A stretch of DNA of 64,000 nt from Sphingopyxis panaciterrae (GTDB lineage Bacteria > Pseudomonadota > Alphaproteobacteria > Sphingomonadales > Sphingomonadaceae). Made by a program: the position numbers and the translations under genes. Location: contig NZ_JAASQN010000001.1 of the NCBI RefSeq assembly GCF_011762125.1, positions 310,001-374,000 of the forward strand, written 5' to 3'. The notes beneath the pieces were generated by a model that saw nothing but the letters and a program-made list of their open reading frames with translations, did no database searches and was not told the origin of the DNA. This document shows positions 10,331 through 25,880 of the stretch, one piece after another. Numbering within the stretch: position 1 is the stretch's first letter; each line of letters starts with the position of its first letter.

Positions 10331-10359
10331 TGCATACAGAGGTGTATTTTAATTTTCAA
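10331..10359 (-). promoter_or_regulatory. soxB promoter with shared dyad (site 1)
   Basis: On the minus strand TTGAAA (10359-10354) and TATGCA (10336-10331) are separated by 17 bp. The dyad CATACA-GAGG-TGTATT occupies 10333-10348, covering the -10 box and part of the spacer, about 23 bp before the soxB start. ATACA and TGTAT are exact inverse halves. The location suggests repression. Confidence 0.6.
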
Positions 10360-10377
10360 CTGCAATTTTGGCCAAAT

Positions 10378-11268
10378 TCATTCCTGAAAAGCCAAGTTTT
10401 CAGCGGATCGATCGTCCCGCACCAAGCCGCGTTCGGCGGATGCAATAGTGTTTTCCATCAACATGGTGACGGTCATCGGACCGACGCCGCCGGGGACCGG
10501 GGTGATGCACGAGGCTTTGGCCGAAACGCCGTCGAAATCGACGTCGCCGGTGATGCGTCCGTCGGGCAGCCGGTTGATCCCGACGTCGATGACGACCGCG
10601 CCGGTCTTGACCATCTGCGGGATGATCAGCCCGGGCACGCCTGCGGCGACGACGAGGATGTCGGCCAGGATGGTGAATTGGGCAAGGTCGCGCGTTTTCG
10701 CGTGACAGATTGCGACGGTCGCATCGCGCGCCATCAGCATCAGCGCCATCGGCTTGCCGACGATGTTGCTGGCGCCGACGACGACGACATTCTGGCCTTC
10801 GATGGCGATATTCTCGCTTTCGAGCAGCTTGACGACGCCATAGGGGGTGCAGGGCGAAAAGATGGTGTTTCCCGTCACCAGCCCGCCGACATTGTAGAGG
10901 TGAAAGCCGTCGACGTCCTTTTCGACCGAGATTGCCTCCAGTACCTGATCGAGCGCGATATGCGGTGGCAGCGGCAACTGGACGAGGATGCCGTCGATGC
11001 CCGCATCTTCGTTGAGCAACGCGATCGTCGCCAGCAATTCGTCATTGCTGACGGTGGATGGAAAGCGAAGGCAGGTCGACTGGATGCCCGTCGCTTCGCA
11101 GGCGCGGATCTTGTTGCGCACATAGACGGCCGACGCCGCGTCGTCGCCGACCAGGATGACGGCAAGGCCGGGTGCCGCGCCGCGCTGTTCGGCGATCGCG
11201 CCCGCGCGCGCCAGCAAACCCCCGCGCAAGGCGCGCGCCAGCCTCTGTCCGTCGATTATCTTCGCCAT
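10378..11268 (-). CDS. folD: Methylene-THF dehydrogenase / methenyl-THF cyclohydrolase
   Basis: Bifunctional cytoplasmic enzyme of 296 residues interconverting 5,10-methylene-THF and 10-formyl-THF with NADP. Tyr49 and Lys53 (SAVYVRNK) are the catalytic pair of the family; QLPLP, PCTPYG, VVGASNIVGKP and TPVPGGVGPMT are further signatures. It lies between the second TonB receptor and soxB on the same strand. With SoxA delivering methylene-THF and PurU consuming formyl-THF, FolD completes the route for the sarcosine methyl group. It may be a dedicated second copy of the housekeeping gene, which cannot be tested here. Confidence 0.95.
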   Translation of the reverse strand: MAKIIDGQRLARALRGGLLARAGAIAEQRGAAPGLAVILVGDDAASAVYVRNKIRACEATGIQSTCLRFPSTVSNDELLATIALLNEDAGIDGILVQLPLPPHIALDQVLEAISVEKDVDGFHLYNVGGLVTGNTIFSPCTPYGVVKLLESENIAIEGQNVVVVGASNIVGKPMALMLMARDATVAICHAKTRDLAQFTILADILVVAAGVPGLIIPQMVKTGAVVIDVGINRLPDGRITGDVDFDGVSAKASCITPVPGGVGPMTVTMLMENTIASAERGLVRDDRSAENLAFQE

Positions 11269-11384
11269 TTACTAAACCCTCGTTGGAAAAACTGTCTCGA
11301 TCCTGGCGATTGCCCCGACGCAGGACAGCGGCCCCGCCGGAACGGAGCCGCTGCAATCGCCGCGACAAGGTGCGGGATGGTGCG

Positions 11385-13544
11385 TCAGAAATTCATGCGC
11401 GCATTGACCCCGATCGTGCGCGGGCGCTGTTCCAGATTCTCGAGGAACACCCCGAACGGGCCGACGATGTTCGGCGCATCCTCGTTGAACAGATTGTTGG
11501 CGAACACCGCGACTTCGACCGGCCCGATTGCGGCCCCGACCCGCGCATTGACCAGATCGCGGCCGGGGCGGGGGATGATTTGCCCGCCGAAGTTGCGCAG
11601 CGTGATCTGCCCGGCTGCGGCATGCTGGTAATCGACGCGGACGATGCCGGTGACATCGCCGCCGAGCGATGGGCGGAAGTCGAGCGAGGCCGACCAGGAT
11701 TCGGGCACCGCAGCGTCGACCGGATCGCCCGGCAGCTTGTCGGCGGTCACATTCTTATATTCCAGATTGTTCCAGCTATAGGTGGCGCTAAGCGTCAGCG
11801 CCGGCATCGGCCGGACCATCGCCGACAGGTCGACGCCCCAGCCGGCGACATCGCCCGAATTGGTCGTGATCGTGATCGGGCTGCCCGGCGCGAAGGCATA
11901 GGATTGCACGTCCGACCACAGGGTGCGGTAGACGCTGGCATCGAGCATCAGCTTGCCGCCGAACAGCTGGTGCTTGGTGCCCAGCTCATAGGTCCAGACC
12001 ACGTCGGGCTTGAAGCTTGGCGGAACGTCGTAAATCCCGCCGCCCGCGGACGTCAGGTTGAACCCGCCGCCGCGGAAGCCCTTGGCGACGCTCGCATACA
12101 CCATCGAATCGGGGGAGATTTCATAGCTGATGTTCAGGCGCGGATTGACGGTTTCGAACGTGCCCTGATTGATGTCGACAACGTCGATGCCGAAATTCGT
12201 GCTGTCCGAAACCTGGCTTTTCCGTTCGTGGAAATAGCGGACGCCGGCGGTGACCTTCAATTCGGGCGTGATCGTTCCGGTCACTTCGCCGTACAGCGCG
12301 AGATAGCGGATCTTGGTCCGCTGATCGAGGTAGAGGATCGATTGCCGCCCGTCGCCGAACAGGGCGTCGGCGGGCACCTCGTTCGGCGCGGTCTGCGCAT
12401 CCGATGTGACGCGATTTTTCAATTCGCGATAGTTGATGCCCAGCGACCAGTCGATCGCCGATTCACCGTGCGACGCAAGCCGCAGTTCGGAATTGAAGAT
12501 TTGCTGATTATAGCCGGCGGCCAGGGTGACCTGATCGATGAAGCCGGGCGCGAGACCCAGCCCGCCCAAGGCGCGCGGGGCGGTCAGCACCGGCACATAG
12601 AATGGCGACAGATCGTTGGCGCTCCGGTTGCTGCGGTCGATATAGCTCAGCGAACCCGCCAGCACGGTGCCGCCAAGGTCGTAGTCGAACTTGCCCTGCA
12701 CCAGCGTATAGCGTTCCTTGTTGAACGCCGGACTGGCGACCGTCGTCTGGCGATTGACGCCGAAATCCTGATTGGCCTGATCGCTCTTCTGGTAAAGCCC
12801 CATCAACGACAGGCTGAGCTGGTCGGTCGGCTCGACCAGCAAGCTGCCCCGCACCGTGTAAAGATCCTGCGCGTTGACGTTCTTGTCGCCGGTCGTGACA
12901 TTGTCGATCCACCCGGCGCCACGCTCGTAACCGCCAACGAGGCGCACCGCGGCGATCTCGCCGAGCGGCAGGTTGATGACCCCGACGCCCTTGTATCCGT
13001 CGCCGCCGTACCGCGTTTTGCTATACTCGCCCTCGGCCGAACCGCTGACCTGACCAAGCTTCGGGGCAGCAGGAATATAGCGGATCGTGCCGCCCATCGA
13101 CCCTTCGCCGTAAAGCGTCGCCTGCGGCCCGCGCAGCACCTCGACCCGCTCCATGTCGAGCAGGCGGACCGAGATCGAATCCCCCTGGATGTCGAGCGCG
13201 AGCGGCGTTTCGTCGAGATAGACGCCGACGGTCGACGCGCCCTGAATGTTCGCCATGCCGCGCAGCTGGACCACCTGCTTGCCGGGCCCATATTCATAGA
13301 GCGACAGGCCGGGGACCGAATATTGCAGGTCGCCGAGCGAGGTGGCGCCGCGCGAGGCGAGTTCGTCGGCGCCGATCGCCGAAATCGATACCGGCACGTC
13401 CTGAAGCCGCTGCTCGTAGCGCTGGGCGGTGACGATGATATCGCCGGGGGCGGCGTCGGCGCTGTCGGCGGCATCCGACTGGGCATTCGCGGCGACCGGA
13501 CACAGCGCCGTGCCGACCCAAAACGCCACCATCAATCGTTTCAT
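11385..13544 (-). CDS. TonB-dependent receptor (second of three)
   Basis: Outer-membrane receptor of 719 residues. The start MKRLMVAFWVGTAL gives a clear signal peptide ending near AANAQ and is preceded by GAGGAAA; an in-frame upstream start would add 24 non-signal residues. A TonB box (GDIIVTAQR), plug segment VLRGPQATLYGEGSMGGTIRY, and terminal strand IGVNARMNF are visible. It is the only outer-membrane importer transcribed toward folD-sox, 116 bp upstream of folD, so it likely brings in the substrate of the island. Its promoter contains the longest version of the shared dyad. Confidence 0.93.
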   Translation of the reverse strand: MKRLMVAFWVGTALCPVAANAQSDAADSADAAPGDIIVTAQRYEQRLQDVPVSISAIGADELASRGATSLGDLQYSVPGLSLYEYGPGKQVVQLRGMANIQGASTVGVYLDETPLALDIQGDSISVRLLDMERVEVLRGPQATLYGEGSMGGTIRYIPAAPKLGQVSGSAEGEYSKTRYGGDGYKGVGVINLPLGEIAAVRLVGGYERGAGWIDNVTTGDKNVNAQDLYTVRGSLLVEPTDQLSLSLMGLYQKSDQANQDFGVNRQTTVASPAFNKERYTLVQGKFDYDLGGTVLAGSLSYIDRSNRSANDLSPFYVPVLTAPRALGGLGLAPGFIDQVTLAAGYNQQIFNSELRLASHGESAIDWSLGINYRELKNRVTSDAQTAPNEVPADALFGDGRQSILYLDQRTKIRYLALYGEVTGTITPELKVTAGVRYFHERKSQVSDSTNFGIDVVDINQGTFETVNPRLNISYEISPDSMVYASVAKGFRGGGFNLTSAGGGIYDVPPSFKPDVVWTYELGTKHQLFGGKLMLDASVYRTLWSDVQSYAFAPGSPITITTNSGDVAGWGVDLSAMVRPMPALTLSATYSWNNLEYKNVTADKLPGDPVDAAVPESWSASLDFRPSLGGDVTGIVRVDYQHAAAGQITLRNFGGQIIPRPGRDLVNARVGAAIGPVEVAVFANNLFNEDAPNIVGPFGVFLENLEQRPRTIGVNARMNF

Positions 13545-13589
13545 CTTTTCCTCCCCAACTGGTCGATACCGAGTCATTATTCTTTCATG

Positions 13590-13616
13590 ATCATACAGTA
13601 GTGTACTGTATGTCAA
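13590..13616 (-). promoter_or_regulatory. TonB receptor promoter with perfect dyad (site 2)
   Basis: On the minus strand TTGACA (13616-13611) and TATGAT (13595-13590) are separated by 15 bp, somewhat short. A perfect inverted repeat, CATACAGTA / GTG / TACTGTATG, fills 13592-13612, spanning both promoter boxes, 48 bp before the receptor start. Its left 16 bp, CATACAGTAGTGTACT, fit the shared motif CATRCA-N4-TGYATG. A regulator bound here would block RNA polymerase. Confidence 0.65.
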
Positions 13617-13760
13617 TGTCTAAATTATTTTGCCTGTAATGCCCGGAAACCGGGACGTTTTCGGCCTTCTTTCGGATCGCAATTCCGCGATTATGTCGAC
13701 CTCAAACCCAAAGGAAATGCCTGGCACGAGGGTAGCGAGCGGACGATGCTTTCCACCGCT

Positions 13761-13835
13761 TCGTCATCCCGGACCTGATCCGGGATCCACCGCACCGCCC
13801 AAGTCGCGGACCCCCGATCAGGTCCGGGATGACGA
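13761..13835. repeat. REP-type palindromic repeat, copy B
   Basis: CGTCATCCCGGACCTGATCC and its inverse GGTCCGGGATGACGA bracket a 75-bp unit in the gap between the S9 peptidase stop and the second receptor's promoter (13617-13851 holds no gene). It is the short version of the repeat family also present at 4206, 19291, 30314 and 61476. Confidence 0.7.
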
Positions 13836-13851: not shown

Positions 13852-15855
13852 CTATAGACCCGAATTCGCCGGCATATGCCTCTCAAACCACGCCATCGTC
13901 CGCGCGGTGTAATCGAACGACGCCGGCATCGTGCGGACGCCATGCCCTTCGTGCGGATAGGTGACAAGCACGCTCTCGATCCCCGCGATCTGTAGCGCGT
14001 GATGGAACTCGAGCGCCTGCCCCGCCGGGGTGATCTTGTCGAGCGCGCCGCAGATGTTCAGCGTCGGTGTCTTTGCCCGGTCCGCGAAATGGATCGGGCT
14101 GCGCGTGAAATATTTGCCGGTCGGATTGCTCAGCCGGTCGTCGAGGAAGATTTCGCAAAAGGTCGGGACGTGACAGGTCAGATGCTCGCTGACCCAGTTG
14201 GTCACCGGCGCCACCGGAACCGCCGCGGCGAAGCGCTGGTCCTGCGTGATGAGCCACGAGGTCATGAAGCCGCCATAGCTGCCGCCGGTCACGCCGAGCC
14301 GCGCCGGGTCGGCGATGCCGGCTTTCTCCAGCGCGTCGAGCCCCGACAGATAATCATGGGTATCGGCGCCGCCCATGTCGCCGAACACCTTGCGTGCGAA
14401 CGACTGGCCGCGCCCGCTCGATCCGCGCGGATTGGGCTGGAACAAGGCATAGCCTGCGGCGAGCGCCATCTGGGGCAGCGCCGAACGGCCGATGTAGATC
14501 GGCCGTGTGTACCAGACCGGGCCGCCATGGACCTGCATGATCAACGGATGCGGCCCGGGGCCCGGCGGAGTGAGCAGCCAGCCATGCATCTCCAGCCCGT
14601 CGGGGGCGGTCCAGCTGAAATCGCGCGCCGACCCCAGCCCGGCGACCGCCGCCGCGACCTCGCTGGTGCCGAAGCGGCGGATCTCGCGTTCGGTGCCGGC
14701 TTCGAGCGCCACCAACGCCGGCGCCTCGAAGAAGGATTCGCACAGGAACAGGACATCGCCGGGGTTGGCGCCGAGCGGCGCGGCCTCGGGGAACATCGCA
14801 CCCGACGGCGTACGCTCGCCGCCGCGCCACAGCTCGCGGCTCGTCTCCGCCGCCCGGTCGAGCAGGCCGATCACCGTTTCGGGGCCCGCCGCCGCGACGA
14901 ACAGCAGCTCATCCTCGTTCCGCCAGCTCAGTTGAACGACGTCACCGCCGAGCGCCGCCGGCCGCGCGATCGCGCCGCTCGCCACGTCGATCAGCCGCAC
15001 GTCGCCCGCGACGATATTGCGGTCGCTGCACACCGCTTCGACCACCGCGACGGTGGCGCCGCCCTTCGTCGCCGCCAGCGCGCCGAGTTGGTCGGTCGGC
15101 CGAAAGAGCGTGCGGACGCTGCCGCTGCCGATCTCGATCAACCGCACGTCGGCCGAATACCACCACGTCTCCTCGGGCTGGTCCGAACAGAAGGCGGCGA
15201 TATGGTCCGCGCCGCACCAGACCGCCTGCCAGACATTGACCCCCGCCGGCGTCACCTGCCGCGCCGTGTCGGCGGCGACATCGTAAAGCCACACCGTACG
15301 CCATGGCGCCGCCTCGGGCATACCCTCCACCACCGGAGCCCACGCGGGCCGCTCGCCCGCTTCGCCTTCCAGGTCGACCGAAAAAGCGCCCTGCGCCCCC
15401 GCCAGATCGGAGCCAAAGCCCGCGACGCCAAGCAGGATCGCAGTGCCGTCGGCCGACCATTGCAGATATTCGACGAAGCCGTTTACCGCTGCGGTGGCGC
15501 GGTCGGTGCCGCTTTCGACGTCGAGGATGCGCAAGCGATTGGCATAGGCCTGCTCGCGGTCCGACAGAAAAGCGATCGCGCGGCCGTCGGGCGACCAGGC
15601 CGGCGCGCTGTCCGATCGCGGGCCGTCGGTGACGGTCTCGAGCTCGCCCGACGTGAGGTCGATGATCGCAAGCCGCGTCGAAGGCGCGCCTTCGAGCGCT
15701 TCGCACAAGAGCGCCGCCGCCGCCGCCCGGCGGCCGTCGGGGCTGGCCACGAGTTGGCCGAGCGCGGCGACCTCGCCCGTTCCGGGGCGGAGCCAGGCGC
15801 GGGTGAGATCTTCGGCCTTTGTGAACAGCGGATGCTGGCGAAAATCGGACTGCAT
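13852..15855 (-). CDS. S9 family serine peptidase, acylaminoacyl/dipeptidyl type
   Basis: A 667-residue protein with an N-terminal WD/TolB-like propeller (WSPDGRAIAFLSDREQ, about residues 80-105) and a C-terminal alpha/beta hydrolase. Ser526 lies in VTGGSYGGFMTS; GALDKITP and PHEGHGV supply the expected Asp and His. The family removes short N-terminal units from small peptides, with access limited by the propeller. There is no signal peptide, so it works in the cytoplasm on imported peptides. ATG at 15855 follows GAGGAAA. Upstream, 52 bp away, is a copy of the shared dyad. It is next to a prolyl oligopeptidase on the same strand. Confidence 0.92.
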   Translation of the reverse strand: MQSDFRQHPLFTKAEDLTRAWLRPGTGEVAALGQLVASPDGRRAAAAALLCEALEGAPSTRLAIIDLTSGELETVTDGPRSDSAPAWSPDGRAIAFLSDREQAYANRLRILDVESGTDRATAAVNGFVEYLQWSADGTAILLGVAGFGSDLAGAQGAFSVDLEGEAGERPAWAPVVEGMPEAAPWRTVWLYDVAADTARQVTPAGVNVWQAVWCGADHIAAFCSDQPEETWWYSADVRLIEIGSGSVRTLFRPTDQLGALAATKGGATVAVVEAVCSDRNIVAGDVRLIDVASGAIARPAALGGDVVQLSWRNEDELLFVAAAGPETVIGLLDRAAETSRELWRGGERTPSGAMFPEAAPLGANPGDVLFLCESFFEAPALVALEAGTEREIRRFGTSEVAAAVAGLGSARDFSWTAPDGLEMHGWLLTPPGPGPHPLIMQVHGGPVWYTRPIYIGRSALPQMALAAGYALFQPNPRGSSGRGQSFARKVFGDMGGADTHDYLSGLDALEKAGIADPARLGVTGGSYGGFMTSWLITQDQRFAAAVPVAPVTNWVSEHLTCHVPTFCEIFLDDRLSNPTGKYFTRSPIHFADRAKTPTLNICGALDKITPAGQALEFHHALQIAGIESVLVTYPHEGHGVRTMPASFDYTARTMAWFERHMPANSGL

Positions 15856-15906: not shown

Positions 15907-15922
15907 CATGCAATGGTGTATG
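15907..15922. promoter_or_regulatory. Shared dyad before S9 peptidase (site 3)
   Basis: CATGCA-ATGG-TGTATG, with arms that differ from perfect symmetry at one position. It lies 52 bp upstream of the peptidase start. On the minus strand a TTGACA at 15939-15934 sits 11 bp before the dyad, so the site covers the place where the -10 box should be. Confidence 0.55.
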
Positions 15923-15935
15923 GAAATTGCCACTG

Positions 15936-17975
15936 TCAAGCGCCGGCCCCATCGGCGCGCATGCCGAGCTGATCCATTACAAAAGCCAGCCATTCGCCAT
16001 TCCACGCCGCCCCCTTGGCCGGATCGGTCACCCCGTGCCCGGTATCGCGCCATACGCGCAGGTGGATCGGTCGGCCGCCGGCATCGGCCTCGTCGAGCCG
16101 CGCGGTGAACTTGCGGCCGTGGAAGGGCATGCATCCGACATCCTTCTCGCCGAATATCTGGTAGATTGCGGGATAGGCGACCCCGTCGGCGATATTGTGA
16201 TACGGCGACCAGCGGATCACCGACCGGGCGACTTCGGACATGGTGGTGTCACCATAATCCTCATACATGATCGCGCGGACGCCGGCGGTCGCGGCGGTCA
16301 GCGGCAACATCTCCATGATGTCGAAGATCGGCACCGACGGAACCACCGCGCGCCACAGATGCGACTGCTGGACGATCGCGATGCCGGCGAGCAGGCCGCC
16401 GTTGCTCGCGCCCATGAACGCCATCAGTTCGGGCTGCGACACCCCGTCGGCGATCAGCGCCTCGGCGACGGCTTCCAGATCATCGAACGTGTTCTGCTTG
16501 TTGTCGAGGCGCCCGCCGTCGTGCCACGCCTTGCCATATTCGGCGCCGCCGCGCAGCGACGCCTGAACGAACACGCCGCCGGCTTCGATAAAGGGGACGA
16601 AGTTCGCCGGGAAACTCGGCAGCATCGATATGTTGAAACCGCCATAGGCATGGACCAGCGTCGGCTGCGGACCGTCCTGCGGCAGGTCCTTCCGGCGCAC
16701 GATAAAATAGGGAATGCGCGTCCCGTCGCGGCTGGTCGCAAAGCGCTGTTCGGCAACGGCGTCGTCCAGCTGGTGCGCCGGTACGCCATGTTGCTGCAAT
16801 TCACCGGTTTCAGGATCGTGGGTGACCAGGACCGCGGCGCGCGTGAAGGTGCCATGGGTGAAGGCGAGCGCATCGCCGCGGCGCACGCATCGTTCGAGCA
16901 GCATTGAGGGCGACGACCCCGGATTTTCGAGCGGCAGCGCTCCGGCAAGCTGGCCATCCAGGTCGAACAGGCGCACGCGCAGCGACACGTCGACGAGGTC
17001 GCCGACATAAAGCCGCTGGCCGATCACCCCGGCCCAGCCGATGAAGCCGTCGCCAGCGGGGACCAGTTCGCGCCATGCCGCGCGATCGATCGAACGCGAT
17101 GCCGGAATGGCGACGACGCGCCCGCGCGGCGCCCCGTCGTTGACGCGCGCGACATAGGTTTCGGCGTCGGCCCAGCTTCCGTCGCATTCGCCGTCCCAGC
17201 CGTCGGGAAGAAAGCGCGTCACGGCGAGCGTGTCGAGGTCGAGCAGGGCTAGCGCGATATGCTCATGCGGTTCGGTGACCACCACGGCGCGGCGCCCGTC
17301 GGGCGAAATATGCGGGGTCAGGCCGCTGTGCTTTGCTTCGACCAGCGTTTCGGGGAGCACGACGTCGGGGCGTGCGGCGGCGCCGTCAGCAACGGGGACG
17401 AAGCGCAGGCGGTGCAGCCCTTCGTCGGTTCGCCCGTCGAGCCAGAAGCCGCTCTCGTCGGGCAGCCAGCCGGGTCGTGCGCCGGTATAGGACAGCGCGG
17501 GAACATCGACGACGCGCCGGCCCGTCGCGGTCTCGAACACCGTCCACTGACCGCTCATGTCACCGTCGCGGCCCCATGCCAGTGCGACGAAGTGCCCGTT
17601 CGGCGACGGTTCGAACCAGGTCATCATCACGGCGCCGCCGCCCGCCGCCTTGGCGAGCGCGGCGGCGGAGGTGATCGTCCGGCCCTTCCCAAGCGCGGTT
17701 TCGCCGGCTGTCAGGACATGGTCACCGCCGACATTCTGGTGACCGAACCAGAGGCCCCCGGCCTTGCGCGGGGCAAAGGGGCTGCCCGCGCCGGCCAGCG
17801 CCAGCAGCCGGTCATACACCGGGCGGTAATTGGGTGACGCCTCGGCGGCCGCTTGCGCCGTACGATCGCGTGCCCATTGCCATTCCAGCGCGGCGGGCGT
17901 GTCGTCGTGCAAATGGGCGAAACGGTCCTCGAATGACACGCCGCCAACGGTTTTCTGAACGGGCTGGGCTTGCAT
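15936..17975 (-). CDS. Prolyl oligopeptidase family protein (S9A)
   Basis: A 679-residue protein with a propeller N-terminal half and a hydrolase C-terminal half. Ser524 lies in FMGASNGGLLAG; GEKDVGCMPFHGRKF and DTGHGV provide the Asp and His region. The signature YGGFNISMLPSF and ASLRGGAEYGKAWHDGG are typical of prolyl oligopeptidases, which cut after proline in short peptides. There is no signal peptide, indicating a cytoplasmic site. The start MQAQPVQKTVGG at 17975 is preferred to an upstream in-frame ATG that would run through the promoter region. It is divergent from the AraC regulator and 80 bp upstream of the other S9 peptidase. Confidence 0.92.
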   Translation of the reverse strand: MQAQPVQKTVGGVSFEDRFAHLHDDTPAALEWQWARDRTAQAAAEASPNYRPVYDRLLALAGAGSPFAPRKAGGLWFGHQNVGGDHVLTAGETALGKGRTITSAAALAKAAGGGAVMMTWFEPSPNGHFVALAWGRDGDMSGQWTVFETATGRRVVDVPALSYTGARPGWLPDESGFWLDGRTDEGLHRLRFVPVADGAAARPDVVLPETLVEAKHSGLTPHISPDGRRAVVVTEPHEHIALALLDLDTLAVTRFLPDGWDGECDGSWADAETYVARVNDGAPRGRVVAIPASRSIDRAAWRELVPAGDGFIGWAGVIGQRLYVGDLVDVSLRVRLFDLDGQLAGALPLENPGSSPSMLLERCVRRGDALAFTHGTFTRAAVLVTHDPETGELQQHGVPAHQLDDAVAEQRFATSRDGTRIPYFIVRRKDLPQDGPQPTLVHAYGGFNISMLPSFPANFVPFIEAGGVFVQASLRGGAEYGKAWHDGGRLDNKQNTFDDLEAVAEALIADGVSQPELMAFMGASNGGLLAGIAIVQQSHLWRAVVPSVPIFDIMEMLPLTAATAGVRAIMYEDYGDTTMSEVARSVIRWSPYHNIADGVAYPAIYQIFGEKDVGCMPFHGRKFTARLDEADAGGRPIHLRVWRDTGHGVTDPAKGAAWNGEWLAFVMDQLGMRADGAGA

Positions 17976-18041: not shown

Positions 18042-18057
18042 CGTACAAAACTGTTTG
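18042..18057. promoter_or_regulatory. Shared dyad between prolyl oligopeptidase and AraC gene (site 4)
   Basis: CGTACA-AAAC-TGTTTG, a weaker match to the island motif (TACA and TGTT half sites). It is placed 67 bp before the peptidase start and 37 bp before the AraC start, so one site could serve both directions and give autoregulation. Confidence 0.5.
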
Positions 18058-18093: not shown

Positions 18094-19245
18094 ATGCGTC
18101 AATCGAGCCATGTCCCCGCAACGCGGCCCGCCGTGTCCGGTCCGCCGCCGGGCGGACGGCGCGTCGCCAAGGCCCGGGCGGCCGCCGGCACCGATGCCGT
18201 CCGGCCGCGACGCTTCCCGGTGTCGACGGGCGCGCTGCGGCCCGTCGCGCTGACCTATGCCATCGCCGACTATCTGATGGCCGCGGACGAGCAACCGCCG
18301 GGCGAGGTCGAATCGCTCGAATCGCTGGGCCATCCGGGCCATTACCGGATGGCTTTTTCAAAAGAATATGGGATGGGATACGCCGAATTCTGCGGAATGG
18401 CGGACGGCTTCTTCACCCATATCGGCGAAGTGACCTTCGCCACGCCCTATGCGATGTCCGTGTCGGCATCCGACATGTTGCGCCTGCGGATCGCCAGCGA
18501 CGGCGACGGCGAATATGTCGCGTCGCGCGGCGACACGCTCGACATCAAGGGGCCCGGCGCGTCGATCATCATCGAACCGGGCGGGCTGCCACCTTCCGAG
18601 GCGGTGTTCGCCGGCCATCACCATATGGTGCAGGTCTGTATCCATCGCGACGCGCTCAAATTGCTCTATGCCGAACGCGAGGCGGAACTGCCCGCGGTGC
18701 TGCAGGCGTTTCTGGCGGGCACGCTGCAACGCACGGTCGCCCGCCGCCTACCGCTCGACCCCGCACTGCTGCGCTGTCTGGAGCGTCTGCACGGCTCGAC
18801 GCTGAAGGGGCATCGCCGTCGGCTGTTCATTCAGTCGAAGGCGGTCGAGATACTCTGCCATGCGTTCGAGCTGCTGGAACAGGAGGAGCGCGAGCTGCCC
18901 GAGGCGTCGGCGCTGACGACGCGGGGCGTGCTCAAGGCACAGCAGCTACTCATGGAAAATTTCGTCGCGCCGCTGACGCTTGAGGACCTCGCGCAGCAAG
19001 TGGGGCTCAGCCGCAGCGGACTTTGCGCCGGTTTCCGCCAGATCGTCGGACAGACGGTGTTCGATTATATCGCCGACCTGCGCATGCAGCACGCGCTGGC
19101 GCTCCTCAACCAGCGCGGCAACTCGATCACCCAGATCGCCTATGCGGTGGGTTATAACCATCCGTCGAGCTTTTCGGTCGCGGTCCAGCGCCGCTTCGGC
19201 ATCAGCCCCAGCGACCTCCGCCGCGGTCTGCTGCCGCCGATCTGA
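18094..19245 (+). CDS. AraC family transcriptional regulator
   Basis: DNA-binding protein of 383 residues. The C-terminal part holds the two AraC helix-turn-helix units: LTLEDLAQQVGLSRSGLCAGF (about 290-310) and ITQIAYAVGYNHPSSFSVAV (about 345-365). The N-terminal part is a long effector domain without recognised ligand residues. The start at 18094 has GGGAGA 6 bases upstream; an earlier TTG frame would overlap the operator. It sits centrally in the peptide/sarcosine island, has a copy of the shared dyad in its own promoter, and a broken relative lies at 25890-26040. It is the best candidate for the island's regulator. Confidence 0.92.
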   Translation: MRQSSHVPATRPAVSGPPPGGRRVAKARAAAGTDAVRPRRFPVSTGALRPVALTYAIADYLMAADEQPPGEVESLESLGHPGHYRMAFSKEYGMGYAEFCGMADGFFTHIGEVTFATPYAMSVSASDMLRLRIASDGDGEYVASRGDTLDIKGPGASIIIEPGGLPPSEAVFAGHHHMVQVCIHRDALKLLYAEREAELPAVLQAFLAGTLQRTVARRLPLDPALLRCLERLHGSTLKGHRRRLFIQSKAVEILCHAFELLEQEERELPEASALTTRGVLKAQQLLMENFVAPLTLEDLAQQVGLSRSGLCAGFRQIVGQTVFDYIADLRMQHALALLNQRGNSITQIAYAVGYNHPSSFSVAVQRRFGISPSDLRRGLLPPI

Positions 19246-19466: not shown

Positions 19467-19482
19467 AAGACAGTAATGCATG
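19467..19482. promoter_or_regulatory. Shared dyad before first GGT-like gene (site 5)
   Basis: AAGACA-GTAA-TGCATG; the right half is a perfect TGYATG, the left half is degenerate. A possible promoter overlaps it: TTGCAT at 19456-19461, 17 bp, CATGTT at 19479-19484. It is 117 bp upstream of the gene start. Confidence 0.45.
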
Positions 19483-19598
19483 TTAATTGAAAGCACCCAG
19501 TTCAGTCCTGTCCGGATTCCGCAAACCCGCAAAGGGAAGCGCCGGCAGGGGCGCTTGGAGCGGCAGTCAGGCCGCCGCATCGGGACAGGAGACGATTG

Positions 19599-21305
19599 AT
19601 GAGCAGGAATCTCGCAGACTATATCCGCAATCCGGGACCCAAGACGCCGGTGACCGGCCTCCGCACCGCGGTCACCACCGACAGTGCGATCGTCACCGAA
19701 ACGATCATGAAGGTGCTGAATTCGGGGGGTAACGCTGCCGATGCGGTGATCGCGGGCGCGATGGTCCAGGCCGCGGTCGAACCCTTCATGACCAATCACG
19801 CCGGGCTCGTCACCATGCTCTATTATGAAGCGAAGACCGGCCGGGTCCACCAGCTCGACAGCCTCGGCGGACATCCGTCGGGCCTGCCGCCGTTCAAGCC
19901 GGTGCCGCCGGGCCTCGGCAGCTATTCGACCTCGCCGCCGTCGGCGATCATTCCGGGTTTCATGCCGGGACTGAAAGCGATTCACCAGAAATTCGCGACG
20001 AAGGACTGGGCCGAGCTTTGCGCCGACGCCGTGCACTGGGCCGAGACGGGGCACCAAGTGTCGACCTTCGAATATGGCGTGAACATCTATGGCGAGAAGT
20101 TCATCACCTATTTCCCCGAGGGCCGCGACTTCTACCAGCCGAACGGCTATTTCCCCAATGTCGGCGACATCTTCACCCCGCCGGGCATGGCCGACACGCT
20201 GCGCGGCGTCCGCGACGACGGACCCGACCATATGATCACCGGCCCCTGGGCCGAGAAATTCGTCGCCAAGGGCAATGACCTCGGCTGGAAGGTCACGATG
20301 GATCATATGACCGAAACGCCGCCGCGCTGGGTCGAGCCGCTACGCTTCGCCTATCATGAATATGAGATCCTCTTCCTCGGGCCGCCGCAAGCGCAGGGCT
20401 TTTTCTCCGGCGTCGCGCTCGGCGTGCTCAAACATCTCGGCATCCGCGATATGGCGCCGGGCTCGGCCGAGCATATCTGGGCGATGGGCCACGCCTTGCG
20501 CCAGGGCCAGCGGCACTGGGAATATGCCCGCGACGATCATGTCTATGACGTGCCGCGCGCCGAAGTGCTCGACGATGATTATCACAAGCATCTGGCGAAG
20601 CTGATCCGGGGGTCGCGGCCGAAGGTCGACATGACCGACCATATCCGCCTGTCGGGCGACGGCCCCTCCGGGGCGGGCGACATGATGGCGGCCATCGCGG
20701 GCCCCTCGGGCAAGCCGCGGCTCGTTCATCACGAGGAAAAACAGCCGAGCGGCAGCTGCGAGATTGCGGTGGTCGATGCCGAAGGCAATTGGTGCCAGTT
20801 CATGGACACGCTGCAGGGCTCGGGCATTCCGGGGCAGGTCATTGGCGGCATCCCGATGGTCGGCAGCCATTCGACCTTCGGTGCTTTGCAGAGCCCGATG
20901 GACACGGTGCTGATCAAGGGCGCAAAGGCGCGCTGCATCATCGGCAACACGTTGGTGCTCAAGGACGGCAAGCCGGTCTTCTCGGCGGGATCGCCGGGCA
21001 ATATCCATTGCACGCTGCCGCAGGTTCTTGCCTATCTGCTCGACTTCAAGCTCGCCCCCTATGCCGCGGTCGACGCGCCGCGGATGCTGCCGATGAGCGA
21101 CGGGCAACTCGTCGCGATCGAGGATCGCCTCGCGCCCGGCGTCGTCCAGGATTTGCACAAGCTGGGGGTCCGCGTCGGTGCGCTGTCGGGCTATGATTAT
21201 CACATGGGCAGCTTCTCGGTGATCGCGCGCGACGAGGCGAGCGGAACCTTGACCGCCGTTGCCGATCCGCGCCGCTGCGCGGTCGCCGATGGCATTGCGG
21301 CGTGA
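19599..21305 (+). CDS. Gamma-glutamyltransferase-like Ntn hydrolase, copy 1
   Basis: A 568-residue member of the GGT superfamily, proenzymes that cut themselves to expose an N-terminal nucleophile. TGLRTAVTTDSAIVTETIMKVL and GGNAADAVIAGAMVQAAVEPFM fit the large subunit, and GSGIPGQVIGG plus FSAGSPGNIHCTLPQ the small one. The canonical TTHxSVVDxxGN reads SCEIAVVDAEGN here, so Ser386 takes the nucleophile place. There is no signal peptide, unlike periplasmic GGT. The ATG at 19599 follows GGGACAGGAG. First gene of an operon with DUF885 and an esterase. Cephalosporin-acylase-like or amidohydrolase activity on an N-acyl or peptide substrate is as likely as true GGT activity. Confidence 0.88.
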   Translation: MSRNLADYIRNPGPKTPVTGLRTAVTTDSAIVTETIMKVLNSGGNAADAVIAGAMVQAAVEPFMTNHAGLVTMLYYEAKTGRVHQLDSLGGHPSGLPPFKPVPPGLGSYSTSPPSAIIPGFMPGLKAIHQKFATKDWAELCADAVHWAETGHQVSTFEYGVNIYGEKFITYFPEGRDFYQPNGYFPNVGDIFTPPGMADTLRGVRDDGPDHMITGPWAEKFVAKGNDLGWKVTMDHMTETPPRWVEPLRFAYHEYEILFLGPPQAQGFFSGVALGVLKHLGIRDMAPGSAEHIWAMGHALRQGQRHWEYARDDHVYDVPRAEVLDDDYHKHLAKLIRGSRPKVDMTDHIRLSGDGPSGAGDMMAAIAGPSGKPRLVHHEEKQPSGSCEIAVVDAEGNWCQFMDTLQGSGIPGQVIGGIPMVGSHSTFGALQSPMDTVLIKGAKARCIIGNTLVLKDGKPVFSAGSPGNIHCTLPQVLAYLLDFKLAPYAAVDAPRMLPMSDGQLVAIEDRLAPGVVQDLHKLGVRVGALSGYDYHMGSFSVIARDEASGTLTAVADPRRCAVADGIAA

Positions 21306-21319
21306 AGGGGCAGATTATC

Positions 21320-23020
21320 ATGACTGAACCCCAGGAACTGAAACAATTCGCCGACGATTATTGGGCCTTTCGCTCCGCCGAATTCCCGATCGAGGCGATC
21401 ATGGCGGGCATCGCCGTCGACGGCGACAGCCTGTTTCGCGAGTCGCCCGCCGACCAACGGCGGCGGGCGGTGTGGGCGGGGGCTGCGCTTGCGAAACTGC
21501 GCGCGATTGCGCCCGACGGGCTGGGTCCGCAGGACCGGGCAAGCTGGCTGCTCCTCGAACATGAACTCGCGTCGTTCGTCGAGGGGGTCGCGAGCCGCGC
21601 CTATCTCCGGCCGCCGCTCTATCCGCTCGGCCCCGACTTCACCCTCACTTATTGGGCGAATGCGACCGCGCTTGCCACCGTCGACGATGCGCGCACCTAT
21701 CTCGCGCGGTTGCGCACGGTCCCGGCGGCGTTCGACGACATTCGCGCCCTGTTGGCCGAAGGCGCGGAGCAAGGACTTCGCTATCCGCGGCTGGTGATCG
21801 AGCGCGCGGTCGAACAGGCGCGCGGGATGGTGTCGATGCCCGTCGCGGCCAACGCCTTCTTCCAGCCACTTGCGCGCGCCGCGGACCGGTCGCCCACATG
21901 GGCGACGCTGGCCGAAGAGGGCCGGGCGGTCGTCGAACAGACTGTCTATCCCGCGGTGCTCGCTTATGCGGACTTTCTCGAAACAGTGCTGCTGCCGGTC
22001 GCCCGCGAAGGGCTGGCGAGTACCGGCGATGTCGACGGCGCGCGCTTCTATGGTCATCTGATCAAGGAATATACGACCATCGCCGGGGATCCCGAGGCGA
22101 TACACGCGCTCGGCCTGTCGGAGGTCGATCGCATCACCGGCGAGATGCTGGCAGTCGCCGCCGACGCCGGCTGCGAAGGCGACCTCGCGGAATTTCGCCG
22201 CCGCCTCCAGACCGACAATGGCCAGATCGCCGAAAGCGGCGAGGCGCTGCGCGAGCAGATCGAGATATTGTCGAAGCGGATCGATGCGCGCATTCCCGAA
22301 TTCTTCGGCCGCGTCCCGCGCACCACCTATGGCGTGCAGAGTATTCCCGAGGCGGTGGCCGAAAAAATGCCGCCCGCCTATGCGCAGCCCAATCCCGCCG
22401 ACGGCAGCATGTCGGGGGTCCACTGGATCACCTCGATTCCCGGAAAATGCCCGCGCTACATGCACCTGCCGCTCGCGCTCCACGAAGCGTGGCCGGGGCA
22501 TCTGATGCATCTGGCGCTCATCCAGGAAATGGACCACCTCCCCGATTTCCGCCGCTTCGGCGGGCTGCGCTACTCGGCATGCCTCGAAGGCTGGGCGCTC
22601 TATTGCGAGCATCTTGGCGAAGAAATGGGTTTCTACACCACCCCCGAAAAACGTTACGGGCGGCTGGAGATGGAGATCTGGCGCGCGGTCCGGCTCGTCG
22701 TCGACACCGGCATCCACGCGAAGGGGTGGAGCCGCGAGCAGGCGATCGCCTATTTCCAGGCGAATATGGCGATGTCGCTCGACACCGTCACCGCCGAGGT
22801 CGATCGCTACATCGGCCTGCCCGGGCAGGCGCTGGCCTATCAGATCGGCAACCTCAAATTCCGCGAGATTCGCGCGCGCGCCGAGGCGGCGCTCGGTGAC
22901 CGCTTCCGCATCCGCGATTTCCACGACGCGCTGATGGCGGCGGGACCGGTCACGCTGCCCGTGCTCGAGGCGCTGATCGACGACTGGACCGCGCGGCAGC
23001 GGGTCGAGGAGGCGGCATGA
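21320..23020 (+). CDS. DUF885 family protein, putative zinc metallopeptidase
   Basis: A 566-residue protein with the DUF885 hallmark HEAWPGHLMHLAL, an HExxxGH-type metal motif, and a downstream CLEGWALYCEHLGEEMGFY with conserved Glu that could be the third ligand. No signal peptide is present. The start MTEPQELKQF at 21320 has AAGGGG before it; an in-frame GTG at 21302 overlaps the previous stop and is less likely. The gene is 14 bp after the GGT-like gene and overlaps the next gene by ATGA. Enzyme activity is not established for most of this family; the setting argues for a cytoplasmic peptidase. Confidence 0.9.
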   Translation: MTEPQELKQFADDYWAFRSAEFPIEAIMAGIAVDGDSLFRESPADQRRRAVWAGAALAKLRAIAPDGLGPQDRASWLLLEHELASFVEGVASRAYLRPPLYPLGPDFTLTYWANATALATVDDARTYLARLRTVPAAFDDIRALLAEGAEQGLRYPRLVIERAVEQARGMVSMPVAANAFFQPLARAADRSPTWATLAEEGRAVVEQTVYPAVLAYADFLETVLLPVAREGLASTGDVDGARFYGHLIKEYTTIAGDPEAIHALGLSEVDRITGEMLAVAADAGCEGDLAEFRRRLQTDNGQIAESGEALREQIEILSKRIDARIPEFFGRVPRTTYGVQSIPEAVAEKMPPAYAQPNPADGSMSGVHWITSIPGKCPRYMHLPLALHEAWPGHLMHLALIQEMDHLPDFRRFGGLRYSACLEGWALYCEHLGEEMGFYTTPEKRYGRLEMEIWRAVRLVVDTGIHAKGWSREQAIAYFQANMAMSLDTVTAEVDRYIGLPGQALAYQIGNLKFREIRARAEAALGDRFRIRDFHDALMAAGPVTLPVLEALIDDWTARQRVEEAA

Positions 23021-23934
23021 CGGCGGCCGAACTGATTCCCGCTCCGGGCGCCGCACCCGGGATCGAAAGCTTCCTTATCGAGCCGCCCGGGCTCGGCACC
23101 GCCTTGCGCATCTCGATCGCGCGGCGGGTCAAGCCGGCGACGGGGCAGAGCGATGGCGCGAGCGCCGTCGTCTATGTGACCGACGCCGACTATTTCTTCG
23201 GCACCGTCGTCGATGCGGCGCGCGTCGGCAGCTTTGGCGGCGACCTGGCGCCGGCGGTCATCGTCGGCATCGGCTATGCCGAGGAGCAGGGTGATCTGGC
23301 GTTCGTCTCCACGCGCCGCTTCCTCGATTTCTATCGCGGGCCGCGGCGCAGCTTTGCCGCCGGGGCCTATGGCAGCTTTGAATTCGGCGGCGCCGATGCG
23401 TTCCTCGCTGCCTTGCGCGACCATGTCATCGCGGGCGTCGAGCGGCATGTTCCGGGGATCGACCCGGCGCGCCGCGTCCTTCTCGGTACTTCGGCAGGTG
23501 GGCACTTCGCCGCTTATGTGCTGGCGCAGGATCCGGGGTTGTTCCAGGGCTATGCCTTGATGAGCCCGATGCTTGTCGATCCGCAGTCGCCGATCGACGG
23601 CGGTCTCGCGCCCGCGGTGGGCGACCCGGTGATGGTGCGGCTGATCGAGGAACTGCCGGACGGCGCGCTCCCGCCGGGGGTGCGTGCTTTCCTGTCGGCC
23701 GGGGCGCTCGAAGAGGATCCGGGAACGATGTTCGCCGATTTTGCGATCATCAGCAATGCGTTGAAGATGCGCGCCGCGCTCGCCCGCCATGGCGTCGAGA
23801 CGCGCTTTACCCAGTTTCCGGGTGAGACGCATGGATCGGTGGCGGGTGCCGCGATCACGCGCGCGCTGCAATTCCTCTTGCCCCCGGTCGATGCAAAGCC
23901 CGACTGGCAGGCGGCGCTCGCAGCGAGCGAGTGA
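23017..23934 (+). CDS. Alpha/beta hydrolase, esterase D/PF00756-like
   Basis: A 305-residue hydrolase. GTSAGGHFAAYVL holds the nucleophile elbow (GxSxG), with ETHGSVAGAAI giving the expected His near the C-terminus and an Asp/Glu in SAGALEEDPG. The N-terminal part (VVYVTDADYFFGTVVDAARVG) resembles the putative esterase family that includes siderophore esterases and S-formylglutathione hydrolases. No signal peptide. It overlaps the DUF885 stop by 4 bp, so it is translationally coupled. It could release an ester or acyl cap from an imported compound; substrate unknown. Confidence 0.88.
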   Translation: MTAAELIPAPGAAPGIESFLIEPPGLGTALRISIARRVKPATGQSDGASAVVYVTDADYFFGTVVDAARVGSFGGDLAPAVIVGIGYAEEQGDLAFVSTRRFLDFYRGPRRSFAAGAYGSFEFGGADAFLAALRDHVIAGVERHVPGIDPARRVLLGTSAGGHFAAYVLAQDPGLFQGYALMSPMLVDPQSPIDGGLAPAVGDPVMVRLIEELPDGALPPGVRAFLSAGALEEDPGTMFADFAIISNALKMRAALARHGVETRFTQFPGETHGSVAGAAITRALQFLLPPVDAKPDWQAALAASE

Positions 23935-23940
23935 TGGCCG

Positions 23941-23964
23941 GGGAGGGCGGCAATGCGCCCTCCC
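23941..23964. terminator. Hairpin between convergent genes
   Basis: GGGAGGGCG and CGCCCTCCC form a perfect 9-bp stem with a 6-base loop, in the 40-bp gap between the esterase and the second GGT-like gene. No run of T follows on either side, so it may be a weak bidirectional terminator. Confidence 0.6.
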
Positions 23965-23974
23965 GCTCCAACTG

Positions 23975-25759
23975 TCAGAAGGCGGTGGCTTGCCCGTTCG
24001 TGTAGGTCGGCGAAATCGCGGTGAGTTCCCCCGTCGTCTGGTCGCGGCGGATCGCGACCCAGAGCCCTTGTGCGAAGCGCGCTTCGACGGGCTGCAGGCG
24101 CTTGATCTCCAGCCCGGTGGCATCCAGCACCTCGTCTGAAAACTCGCCGTCGATGACGCGCAGGATCAATTCGCGCTGGCTGGCGTCGGGCGAAATCGGT
24201 AACAGCAGACGCGGCGCATTGGCCGTTTGCTCCAGGTCCATTCCGAAATCGACGATGTTGAGCAAGGATTGCGTCGTCTGATAGTGAAGCCCGACCCCCA
24301 TCGACGACCAGGCGGTATCGGCCTTGCCGTCTTTCAGGATGATCCCGACCTCGATCGGGTTGGGAAGCTGCCCGCCGCGCGGGGTCGCCGCGACCAAAGT
24401 CTGCATATAGGCGGCGGGATCGCCCACCGACACGCCGTCGACGACGATCGCGGTGCGGCCCCAGATCAGGCAATTGATCGAGTGGCAGAGCGCGGCCATG
24501 TTGCCGTCGGCGTCGACCGCGACGACGACGTCGGAATGCGTGCCCTTGGGCAGGAAGCGGATCGGCGATTGCTCTTCGAGACGTGCCCAGAGGTCCCGGG
24601 CATGCGCCTTGCCGAGCCGCGCCGTGCGGCCCATGTCGAGGCCGGGAAAGGCGGCCGCCTGCTCTTCCTCGGTCTCGTACCGCATGCCGCCGATCGCGGC
24701 GCAGCATTTGGCGAGGCGGATCAGGCTGTCGGCGGAGGTCGACCAATGACCGCGCTCCCGGATCCCCGCGACTTCGCAGAGGTTGAGCGTTTCGACGAGA
24801 TTGACGCTGCCCTCGCACGGTTCGCCGAGCAGGGCGATGCTATGGTCGCGGCGCTCGATCGTCACCGGGTCCGACCAGACCGGCTGATAGGCCGCAAGAT
24901 CGTCGAGCGTCATCCGCCCGCCATCGGCCTGGATCGCCTCGATGCACTTCGCTGCCCAGGCGCCGCTGTACATATAATCGGCGCCCTCGGCAGCGATCCG
25001 GCGCAGCGTTTCGGCGAGCGCCGGCTGCCGGAAATGATCGCCTTCGGCATAGGGCGTGTCGTCGGGCTTGAAGAAGACCGCCTTGGTTTCAGGCAATCGC
25101 GCCAGATCCTGCTTGCGGATGTCGATATAGCGCGCCAGCCCGGGCGAGACGATGAACCCGTCGTCGGCGAGTTCGATCGCCGCTTCGAACAGGCGCGCAA
25201 AGGGCAGCTTGCCATGGCGGCGGTGCGCCGCTTCGAGCCCGCGCATGAAGCCGCCGACGAGCGCGGTGCGGCCCGACGGTTCGCCCGTACCCATCATATT
25301 GGCAATGCCGTCGCCCGCGGCGTTCAGCGTGCCCGGGATCGACAGCGGGTCGTCCTCGCCCTGAACCGTGTTCCAGCCGGCGTTGAGCGAGGTCACCTCG
25401 CCGCTCTCGCCATCGACATGCATCAGCGCCATGATGCCGAAGAAGCTGATCACCGCGCCGCCGCCGAGCACGATCTGCGCCAGTGCGGCGCTCAGCACCG
25501 CGTCGACCGCCGAACCGCCCTGGCGCAGCGCCTCTTCGCCGACCCGCGCGGCAAAGCCGTTGAGCGCGGTGGAAACGGCGCCGCCATGGCCGCGGCCGGC
25601 CGGGTTCCCGGGCAGCGAATCCTGCTGGATGCGCCAGAAGCGCTCGCGATCCGCAGCGGGCCAGCCCGACGGGGCGAGCGTCGCGGGGGCATCGGCGGTG
25701 CCAGCGGGTGAAAGGGTCTCGGTGCCGCTGCCGGCCTCGTTGTTCGGCGCTTCCGTCAT
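23975..25759 (-). CDS. Gamma-glutamyltransferase-like Ntn hydrolase, copy 2
   Basis: A 594-residue GGT-superfamily protein distinct from copy 1. GGSAVDAVLSAALAQIVLGGG and GTLNAAGDGIANMMG belong to the large subunit. The processing site reads THSDVVVAVDADGN, so Ser409 stands where GGT has its Thr nucleophile; Thr407-His408 lie two residues earlier. The start at 25759 (MTEAPNNEAG) is chosen over a more upstream GTG/TTG. No signal peptide. A low-complexity N-terminal stretch (about residues 1-40) precedes the domain. It converges on the esterase gene and carries its own copy of the shared dyad 106 bp upstream, so it seems to be in the same regulon. Confidence 0.87.
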   Translation of the reverse strand: MTEAPNNEAGSGTETLSPAGTADAPATLAPSGWPAADRERFWRIQQDSLPGNPAGRGHGGAVSTALNGFAARVGEEALRQGGSAVDAVLSAALAQIVLGGGAVISFFGIMALMHVDGESGEVTSLNAGWNTVQGEDDPLSIPGTLNAAGDGIANMMGTGEPSGRTALVGGFMRGLEAAHRRHGKLPFARLFEAAIELADDGFIVSPGLARYIDIRKQDLARLPETKAVFFKPDDTPYAEGDHFRQPALAETLRRIAAEGADYMYSGAWAAKCIEAIQADGGRMTLDDLAAYQPVWSDPVTIERRDHSIALLGEPCEGSVNLVETLNLCEVAGIRERGHWSTSADSLIRLAKCCAAIGGMRYETEEEQAAAFPGLDMGRTARLGKAHARDLWARLEEQSPIRFLPKGTHSDVVVAVDADGNMAALCHSINCLIWGRTAIVVDGVSVGDPAAYMQTLVAATPRGGQLPNPIEVGIILKDGKADTAWSSMGVGLHYQTTQSLLNIVDFGMDLEQTANAPRLLLPISPDASQRELILRVIDGEFSDEVLDATGLEIKRLQPVEARFAQGLWVAIRRDQTTGELTAISPTYTNGQATAF

Positions 25760-25864
25760 TGTGAAATTCCTCTGCCTCGTCGCAAGATCATGCGCCATGC
25801 CGACTTTCGTGGTCGGGCGGCGCAGGGCGCGTTCGGCATGCTACCGAACAGTGCTTTGCTAAAT

Positions 25865-25880
25865 CAAGCACTAATGTATA
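25865..25880. promoter_or_regulatory. Shared dyad before second GGT-like gene (site 6)
   Basis: CAAGCA-CTAA-TGTATA; read on the minus strand TATACATTAGTGCTTG, with TATACA possibly serving as a -10 box. An additional inverted pair, AGTGCTT (25850-25856) and AAGCACT (25866-25872), overlaps it. The site separates the gene from the AraC remnant. Confidence 0.5.

Follow-up and report, generated by a model that had tools for sequence, protein, structure and literature searches.

A 64,000-nucleotide stretch of the Sphingopyxis panaciterrae genome (contig NZ_JAASQN010000001.1, positions 310,001 to 374,000; hereafter, the window) carries an island of genes encoding sarcosine oxidase, folate enzymes, a TonB-dependent receptor, and several peptidases and other hydrolases, in which six sites share a short dyad with the consensus CATRCA-N4-TGYATG. 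These six dyads are very probably the operators of a TetR-family regulator that is encoded outside the window and that is predicted to repress the island promoters until it is released by an inducer. An earlier note on this DNA had named the AraC-family protein encoded within the island as the likely regulator; comparisons of the dyad, the TetR genes, and the araC genes across genomes strongly favor the reassignment of this role to the TetR-family protein. The six-dyad observation itself was confirmed, and the regulon that it defines is supported and extended by the analyses described below.

Position, specificity, and conservation of the dyads

All six sequences that had been proposed to align under the consensus are present in the window (Table 1), and the one upstream of the TonB receptor gene lies within a 21-bp palindrome composed of two 9-bp arms flanking a 3-base center. 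Measured to start codons of our own choice, the distances agree with the range of 23 to 120 bp reported previously (i.e., 23 bp at soxB, counted from the 14-bp core; 47 bp at the TonB receptor gene; 51 bp at S9 peptidase a; 66 bp at S9 peptidase b and, on the other side of the same dyad, 36 bp at araC; approximately 115 bp at the gamma-glutamyltranspeptidase-like gene GGT1; and 66 bp at its counterpart GGT2). Promoter-like -35/-10 boxes overlap the dyad at soxB and at the TonB receptor gene (TTGACA-18-GATCAT; 13616 to 13587), as had been claimed, and also at S9 peptidase a (TTTCCA-18-GATAAT; 15926 to 15897). The promoter-like box at the GGT2 dyad is directed away from GGT2. A Shine-Dalgarno-like GGAGG is located within the 23 bp that separate the dyad from the soxB start.

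Matches to the consensus with up to three mismatches were not above chance in the window (36 versus 41 expected). When up to two mismatches were allowed, seven matches were found, six of which are the dyads considered here, and these six were the only matches in the 5.7 kb of intergenic DNA (delimited by our own gene calls). Dinucleotide-preserving shuffles of the intergenic DNA yielded a mean of 0.36 and a maximum of 4 matches (n = 500), and consensus sequences with other spacers (i.e., gaps of 0 to 3 and 5 to 8) yielded 0 or 1 intergenic match.

The dyads are kept in G019 and G036, two genomes of the window's genus in which the island likewise extends from purU to GGT2. In the three-genome alignment, 58 of the 60 columns of the dyad arms were identical, versus 407 of 1030 columns elsewhere in the same intergenic stretches. 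The arms were conserved at 10 of 10 positions at soxB, the TonB receptor gene, S9b/AraC, and GGT1 and at 8 of 10 positions at S9 peptidase a; at GGT2, all 26 bases of a block that includes the dyad were identical, and its flanks barely aligned. Since the remainder of the stretches at soxB, S9 peptidase a, and S9b/AraC is itself 68 to 76% identical, the contrast between the arms and their surroundings is smaller at these three sites.

A motif search of the whole genome was informative for the exact and tight forms of the dyad, while the loose consensus of the earlier note proved unspecific (at least 200 matches per strand with up to two mismatches, versus 40 for the control). The exact form RTRCA-N4-TGYAY occurs at 16 places in the window's genome (5 for the reversed control) and the tight core RTACA-N4-TGTAY at only 5 places in 4.84 Mb (i.e., at soxB, the TonB receptor gene, a second TonB-receptor paralog, a TetR gene on contig C3, and an S15 peptidase gene in the locus of this TetR gene). 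A restriction of the sites to the sarcosine/peptidase island, which the earlier note had named as support, was thus not borne out; this genome also has exact dyads at its TetR locus and within another island.

A TetR subfamily associated with the dyad

A scan of paralogous islands revealed three TetR genes with the dyad either upstream or across the start of the open frame: two in the window's genome (C3 and C8) and one in G035. From a scan of named genomes with these three proteins, we analyzed the best 80 of 547 confirmed TetR loci, which are mostly labelled Alpha- or Gammaproteobacteria or plain Pseudomonadota (two are Actinomycetota) and some of which are near-identical (e.g., L081 and L083). 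The exact tight core occurred 95 times in these loci (1.41 Mb) and was present in 67 of the 80; for gaps of 0, 1, 2, 3, 5, 6, 7, and 8, the numbers of occurrences in the same DNA were 2, 0, 0, 1, 2, 0, 0, and 0, respectively. Between positions -200 and +60 of the estimated TetR start, exact ATACA-N4-TGTAT was found at 21 of the 80 genes, compared with 0 to 2 for any other gap (0 to 9). By these counts, RTACA-N4-TGTAY is a sequence signature of one TetR subfamily. Among the best-conserved stretches of this subfamily, after six distant rows were left out of the comparison, is VTRGSFYWHF, the recognition-helix segment of the C3 TetR.

The flanks of the 80 loci contained homologs of soxA or soxB in 26 cases, of purU in 14, of M19 dipeptidase in 8, and of TonB receptors in 17 and 18, depending on which of two receptor queries was used. 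Within 300 bp, the exact form RTRCA-N4-TGYAY was detected at 13 of 21 soxB genes (0 or 1 for other gaps), 5 of 8 M19 genes, and 8 of 19 receptor genes (TBDT2 query). When 19 soxB promoters were aligned at the dyad, agreement of at least 70% was confined to the dyad arms, and the distance from dyad to start was 11 to 66 bp (19 to 29 bp in 13 of the 19). Of the 21 soxB loci, 15 are represented in this alignment (with L056 entered as L047), together with four from the window's genus; the loci omitted were L074, L075, L076, L099, and L104, which have no site with at most one mismatch, and L085, which has a one-mismatch site.

The association also held among 119 related genomes, 28 of which have soxB (E value of at most 1e-80; of the 35 matches, the 30 that had loci were compared). 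An exact gap-4 dyad was located within 300 bp of soxB at 16 of 18 loci from TetR-positive genomes (i.e., TetR match with an E value below 1e-25) versus none of 12 from TetR-negative ones (Fisher p = 1e-6), with the caveat that neither related genomes nor near-identical loci are independent samples, and p values here and below serve as guides only. No exact match with any other gap from 0 to 8 was found near soxB in the 30 loci. Among the 16 positive loci are that of the window and the orthologous ones of G019 and G036; G083, which has a weak TetR match (2e-17), was scored as negative. In G008, which has a related receptor and no TetR or soxB match, no site was found in 30 kb. Within the genus, 10 of 12 TetR-positive versus 1 of 60 TetR-negative genomes contained two or more copies of perfect ATACA-N4-TGTAT, and 10 of 12 versus 5 of 60 contained at least one (G021 and G058, with matches of 2e-17 and 2e-20, were scored as negative). 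The two TetR-positive genomes without a perfect dyad (G020 and G040) have TetRs of the C8 branch only and a variant dyad upstream of soxB.

The six dyads could be recovered from TetR genes alone. A symmetric matrix of 22 columns was built from 30 TetR-upstream sites, one from each of the 30 loci, among the 79 other than L056, that have a site with at most one mismatch; none came from the window's genus (L056 was dropped on this account). Over 63,979 window positions, the soxB site ranked 1, followed by the TonB receptor (2), GGT1 (3), S9 peptidase a (4), S9b/AraC (5; score, 17.9), and GGT2 (7; score, 10.0) sites. Rank 6 was a second overlapping register of the 21-bp palindrome, and rank 8 lay inside the AraC gene.

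The likely regulator of the island is the product of the TetR gene on contig C3 (446,744 to 447,388), which is located in the same genome outside the window. Its TetR_N helix-turn-helix (HTH) domain was recognized (PF00440; 37.6 bits; cutoff, 24), and its predicted model contains ten helices (pLDDT, 89.7). The best solved-fold matches to the model include EthR and QacR (TM, approximately 0.6 to 0.7; E values, 1.5e-4 to 1e-3), so that it is predicted to fold as an all-helical TetR protein with a helical ligand domain; matches in a sequence search of solved structures were centered on the HTH, with little beyond it. The C3 dyad (ATACAGAAATGTAT) lies approximately 190 bp upstream of the chosen start, before the conserved coding part. 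The best matches of the C3 TetR in G019 and G036 share 87 to 88% identity with it, and in the tree it belongs to a 14-row clade (support, 100/99) consisting of itself, these two orthologs, and 11 others. Nine of the 11 come from sox islands (G035 and L056 being one locus); the available DNA around the other two (L052 and L058) contains no sox gene. Its nearest named relative is from Sphingomonas sp. ERG5 (L051), in which the TetR gene is divergent from soxB (87% identical to that of the window) with the dyad between them, followed by soxA, soxG, and purU. In G035, the sox island itself contains the TetR gene, which lies between the TonB receptor gene and soxB, and dyads are located ahead of or at the starts of soxB, TetR (one mismatch), the receptor gene, and one S9 gene; no AraC match was found in this genome. 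A TetR gene inside the window (37997 to 38656, beside an RND pump) was rejected as a candidate: its product is 27% identical to the C3 TetR over 71 residues, there is no dyad between it and the pump genes, and no site there was among the 25 best matrix matches.

Several observations weigh against this assignment. When up to two mismatches are allowed, the spacer control weakens (gap 4 at 34 of the 80 TetR genes versus 1 to 25 for other gaps). At TetR loci elsewhere, the exact dyad was not found before GGT1 (0 of 5), GGT2 (0 of 3), DUF885 (0 of 5), S9 peptidase a (0 of 2), S9 peptidase b (0 of 1), or purU (0 of 3), and it was near a DPP4-like S9 gene in only 1 of 6 cases. Two TetR-positive loci (i.e., G029 and the second copy in G116) have no exact dyad at soxB. 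G045, which has no TetR, has a soxB 91% identical to that of the window with a two-mismatch site (CTACAGCACTCTAT) upstream (L210); this site scores 17.0, near the S9b/AraC site and above the GGT2 site, and may be read as decayed, as if the loss of the regulator had freed the operator. The pattern used to choose the matrix training sites had initially been noticed in the window's genome, so that the matrix is independent in sequence, not in idea; the gap controls cover this point. The C3 dyad lies inside the longest reading frame, the start codon being our choice. Moreover, there is no linkage between the C3 TetR gene and the island in the window's genome, and the existence of two paralogs (C8, 34%; C2, 32%) makes the exact protein unsure. 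The G020 island, which combines sox genes, purU, GGT1, and DUF885 with a C8-type TetR, indicates that exchange between TetR types is possible. The least secure parts of our account are the GGT2 site, the choice among the TetR paralogs, and all that concerns DNA binding and the ligand. Finally, some TetRs of the subfamily adjoin unrelated genes (e.g., those for a 2OG-Fe(II) oxygenase and a nucleoside hydrolase in L084).

In several rhizobial loci the dyad is 1.1 to 1.3 kb from the TetR gene, close to neighboring genes. Five rhizobial loci (L084, L098, L107, L111, and L118) have a TetR of the same branch and a perfect operator-like ATACAGTACTGTAT near other genes; they may represent another regulon under the same TetR-type switch. 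In seven further records (L093, L095, L101, L103, L115, L125, and L130), the region upstream of TetR contains two dyads 22 bp apart, an arrangement that suggests tandem operators; these records are gammaproteobacterial (L103 is the Olavius Gamma 3 symbiont).

The island AraC protein and other explanations of the dyads

The claim of a single regulon under AraC stands in its first part, as the shared dyad links the TonB receptor, the S9 peptidases, the GGT-type Ntn hydrolases, and sarcosine oxidase, and is not supported in its second. The island protein has an AraC-type DNA-binding domain (PF12833). Close relatives (48 to 100% identity) were found in 4 of the 119 genomes (G000, 5; G019, 2; G020, 3; G036, 4), all of which also have the TetR, and distant matches (28 to 35%) in four further genomes. 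Close relatives are missing from 11 of the 15 genomes that have an exact dyad before soxB, and the dyad instead tracks the TetR subfamily. Since araC carries a dyad of its own and close AraC proteins are missing elsewhere, araC looks like a target. That the araC genes are targets is the simplest reading of these distributions, with a role for AraC at its own site being possible.

Such a role is part of a two-tier arrangement that is compatible with TetR control and that we regard as rather unlikely: TetR would act at the symmetrical dyads, and the asymmetric CGTACAAAACTGTTTG before araC would be an autoregulatory site of AraC or a site shared by both proteins. This 16-mer, which is the S9b/AraC site of the window, is unchanged before araC genes (seven copies, found only in the four close-AraC genomes among the 119 searched), and conservation extends past this dyad into shared flanks (76% of the remaining intergenic stretch). 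However, the site ranks fifth with the TetR matrix, and two other araC genes carry CGTACAATAGTGTAT at the same place, which is an exact RTACA-N4-TGTAY.

The possibility that the dyads are sites of the island AraC, which would activate or repress all six promoters, is considerably more remote. AraC relatives adjoin TonB-receptor relatives in the four genomes, and 13 of 14 araC relatives (all but C1:539,994) are preceded by a CGTAC-type site whose orientation is constant. Within the genus, perfect dyads occur at least twice in 3 of 4 AraC-positive versus 8 of 68 AraC-negative genomes (p = 0.01), an association, weaker than that with the TetR, that favors AraC and counts against TetR but is tempered by the presence of the TetR in all four AraC-positive genomes. 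Against AraC stand the 11 genomes noted above and the matrix derived from TetR-gene sites alone, which predicts all six dyads; the soxB dyad also appears too near the start codon for a typical activator. GbdR, a characterized AraC regulator of the choline pathway, is only distantly similar to the island AraC (NF052371 equivalog; 35.6 bits; cutoff, 480). SouR is also AraC-type, and no SouR model was among the 25 of 30 families listed. AraC as the main regulator was thus rejected by gene distribution, upstream sites, and the TetR-site matrix.

A chance likeness, or a general promoter feature (i.e., A+T-rich -10 regions) in a G+C-rich genome, would fit the behavior of the loose consensus at two and three mismatches but is scarcely credible given the shuffles, the three-genome conservation, the TetR association, and the spacer controls, the last of which largely refute it (95 exact matches at gap 4 versus 0 to 2 at other gaps).

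Gene content, proposed circuit, and relation to known systems

The genes of the island and the six dyads are listed in Table 1. For the heterotetrameric sarcosine oxidase, soxA and soxB exceeded the curated cutoffs, as did purU; soxD and soxG matched the correct models with scores under the cutoffs (soxD having been queried as a cut piece).

Table 1. Dyads and genes of the sarcosine/peptidase island (window coordinates; model scores with cutoffs where available)
Feature	Position	Strand	Core sequence or supporting model
Dyad upstream of soxB and the sox-purU genes	10333..10348		ATACAGAGGTGTAT
Dyad within 21-bp palindrome upstream of TonB receptor gene	13592..13612		ATACAGTAGTGTAC
Dyad upstream of S9 peptidase a	15907..15922		ATGCAATGGTGTAT
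Dyad between divergent S9 peptidase b and AraC genes	18042..18057		GTACAAAACTGTTT
Dyad upstream of GGT1-DUF885-esterase genes	19467..19482		AGACAGTAATGCAT
Dyad upstream of GGT2 (weakest of the six)	25865..25880		AAGCACTAATGTAT
purU, formyltetrahydrofolate deformylase	4424..5587	-	TIGR00655, 313.9 bits (cutoff, 286)
soxG-like, sarcosine oxidase gamma	5286..5849	-	TIGR01375, 65.9 bits (below cutoff, 144)
soxA, sarcosine oxidase alpha	5842..8856	-	TIGR01372, 1241 bits (cutoff, 1164)
soxD-like, sarcosine oxidase delta	~8853..9062 (approximate)	-	TIGR01374, 86.9 bits (below cutoff, 116.5)
soxB, sarcosine oxidase beta	9063..10310	-	TIGR01373, 651.9 bits (cutoff, 529)
folD	10378..11268	-	PF02882, PF00763
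TonB-dependent receptor	11385..13544 (longer frame reaching 13616)	-	PF00593, PF07715
S9 peptidase a	13852..15855	-	PF00326
S9 peptidase b	15936..17975 (longer frame reaching 18095)	-	PF00326, PF02897
AraC-family protein	18094..19245 (longer frame from 17974)	+	PF12833, 82.7 bits
GGT1, gamma-glutamyltranspeptidase-like Ntn hydrolase	19596..21305	+	PF01019
DUF885 protein	21302..23020	+	PF05960
Esterase-like alpha/beta hydrolase	23017..23934	+	PF00756
GGT2, gamma-glutamyltranspeptidase-like Ntn hydrolase	23975..25798	-	PF01019

Approximately 90 bp adjoining the GGT2 dyad (25886 to 25977) match in reverse the 3' ends of the araC orthologs in G019 and G036 (82%) and are likely the remnant of an araC gene. 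After GGT2, the G019 sequence resumes at window position 46746, at a tRNA-Thr gene (46748 to 46823). Positions 26000 to 46747 of the window thus represent 20 kb of extra DNA relative to G019 that ends at a tRNA gene and contains MFS, MerR, beta-lactamase-like, RND pump and TetR, TauE, CHAT-TPR, S8, and ECF sigma genes. A short repeat at 13761 to 13835 matches one place in G019 (local positions 32259 to 32333) on both strands, which is also matched by window stretches near 4252, 30361, and 61471; it is possibly a REP-like element.

In the circuit that we propose, the C3 TetR would bind the six dyads directly and repress the island promoters, and an inducer made from the substrate of the island would release it. 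The gene content suggests that this inducer is probably sarcosine or a peptide that bears sarcosine or is otherwise N-methylated. The TonB receptor would import peptides, which the S9-type, DUF885, and gamma-glutamyl hydrolases would cleave; sarcosine oxidase would demethylate the freed sarcosine, and FolD and PurU would process the one-carbon unit. AraC would be a controlled gene and perhaps a second-tier activator. Repression is inferred because the soxB dyad ends approximately 23 bp before the start, leaving little room for a downstream promoter; soxB transcription probably starts in or beside the dyad, which would suit a repressor. A peptide substrate is likewise suggested by the combination of peptidases, gamma-glutamyl hydrolases, and an N-methylglycine oxidase. 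The S9 and S15 peptidase families have a likely preference for proline-like bonds.

More tentatively, one TetR branch of Alpha- and Gammaproteobacteria might read ATACA-N4-TGTAT and run a catabolism of sarcosine or N-methylated peptides in which TonB-dependent uptake is followed by prolyl-type and dipeptide hydrolases that cut beside the N-alkylated residue and by sarcosine oxidase and folate enzymes that burn the methyl group. In the lineage of the window, the repressor would have left the island and would control several islands remotely, with the AraC proteins subordinate to it. These results assign an operator and a likely regulator to islands of TonB receptor, peptidase, and sarcosine oxidase genes and outline a regulon that can be tested, and they suggest that the regulator need not be encoded in the island. 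The co-regulated gene set also suggests imported peptides, and not betaine, as the source of the sarcosine used here.

Among known systems, the C3-type proteins resemble the TetR-family repressors (EthR and QacR by fold; 5yek [BioQ], AcrR, MtrR, and TtgR by sequence) in having a TetR_N domain, an all-helical predicted fold, and a dyad near their own gene and near neighboring genes. They differ in that, at the sequence level, the best solved proteins resemble them over little beyond the HTH and in that the predicted targets are sarcosine oxidase, a TonB receptor, and peptidases. EthR, QacR, BioQ, AcrR, MtrR, and TtgR bind other operators. The literature, as far as it was covered, contained no TetR switch of sarcosine oxidase and no match to this operator; given the partial coverage, this is weak evidence of absence. 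The available part of one report (PMC10531186) contained nothing on cleavage next to sarcosine. According to another (PMC8864220), the TetR-family protein AmtR represses creatine-use genes in Corynebacterium glutamicum. AmtR is thus similar in its family and in acting on a neighboring pathway (creatine to glycine) and different in being a central nitrogen regulator; the likeness is one of family and pathway. In Pseudomonas aeruginosa, the soxBDAG sarcosine oxidase operon needs the activators GbdR and SouR, which also act on betaine genes, as indicated by two reports (PMC12093977 and PMC8864220). The systems share the control of sarcosine oxidase genes; unlike these activators, of which GbdR belongs to the AraC family, the regulator proposed here is of the TetR type and probably a repressor. 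To the extent that these sources describe the Pseudomonas system, a TetR-type switch would represent a different logic for the control of sarcosine oxidase from that of GbdR and SouR.

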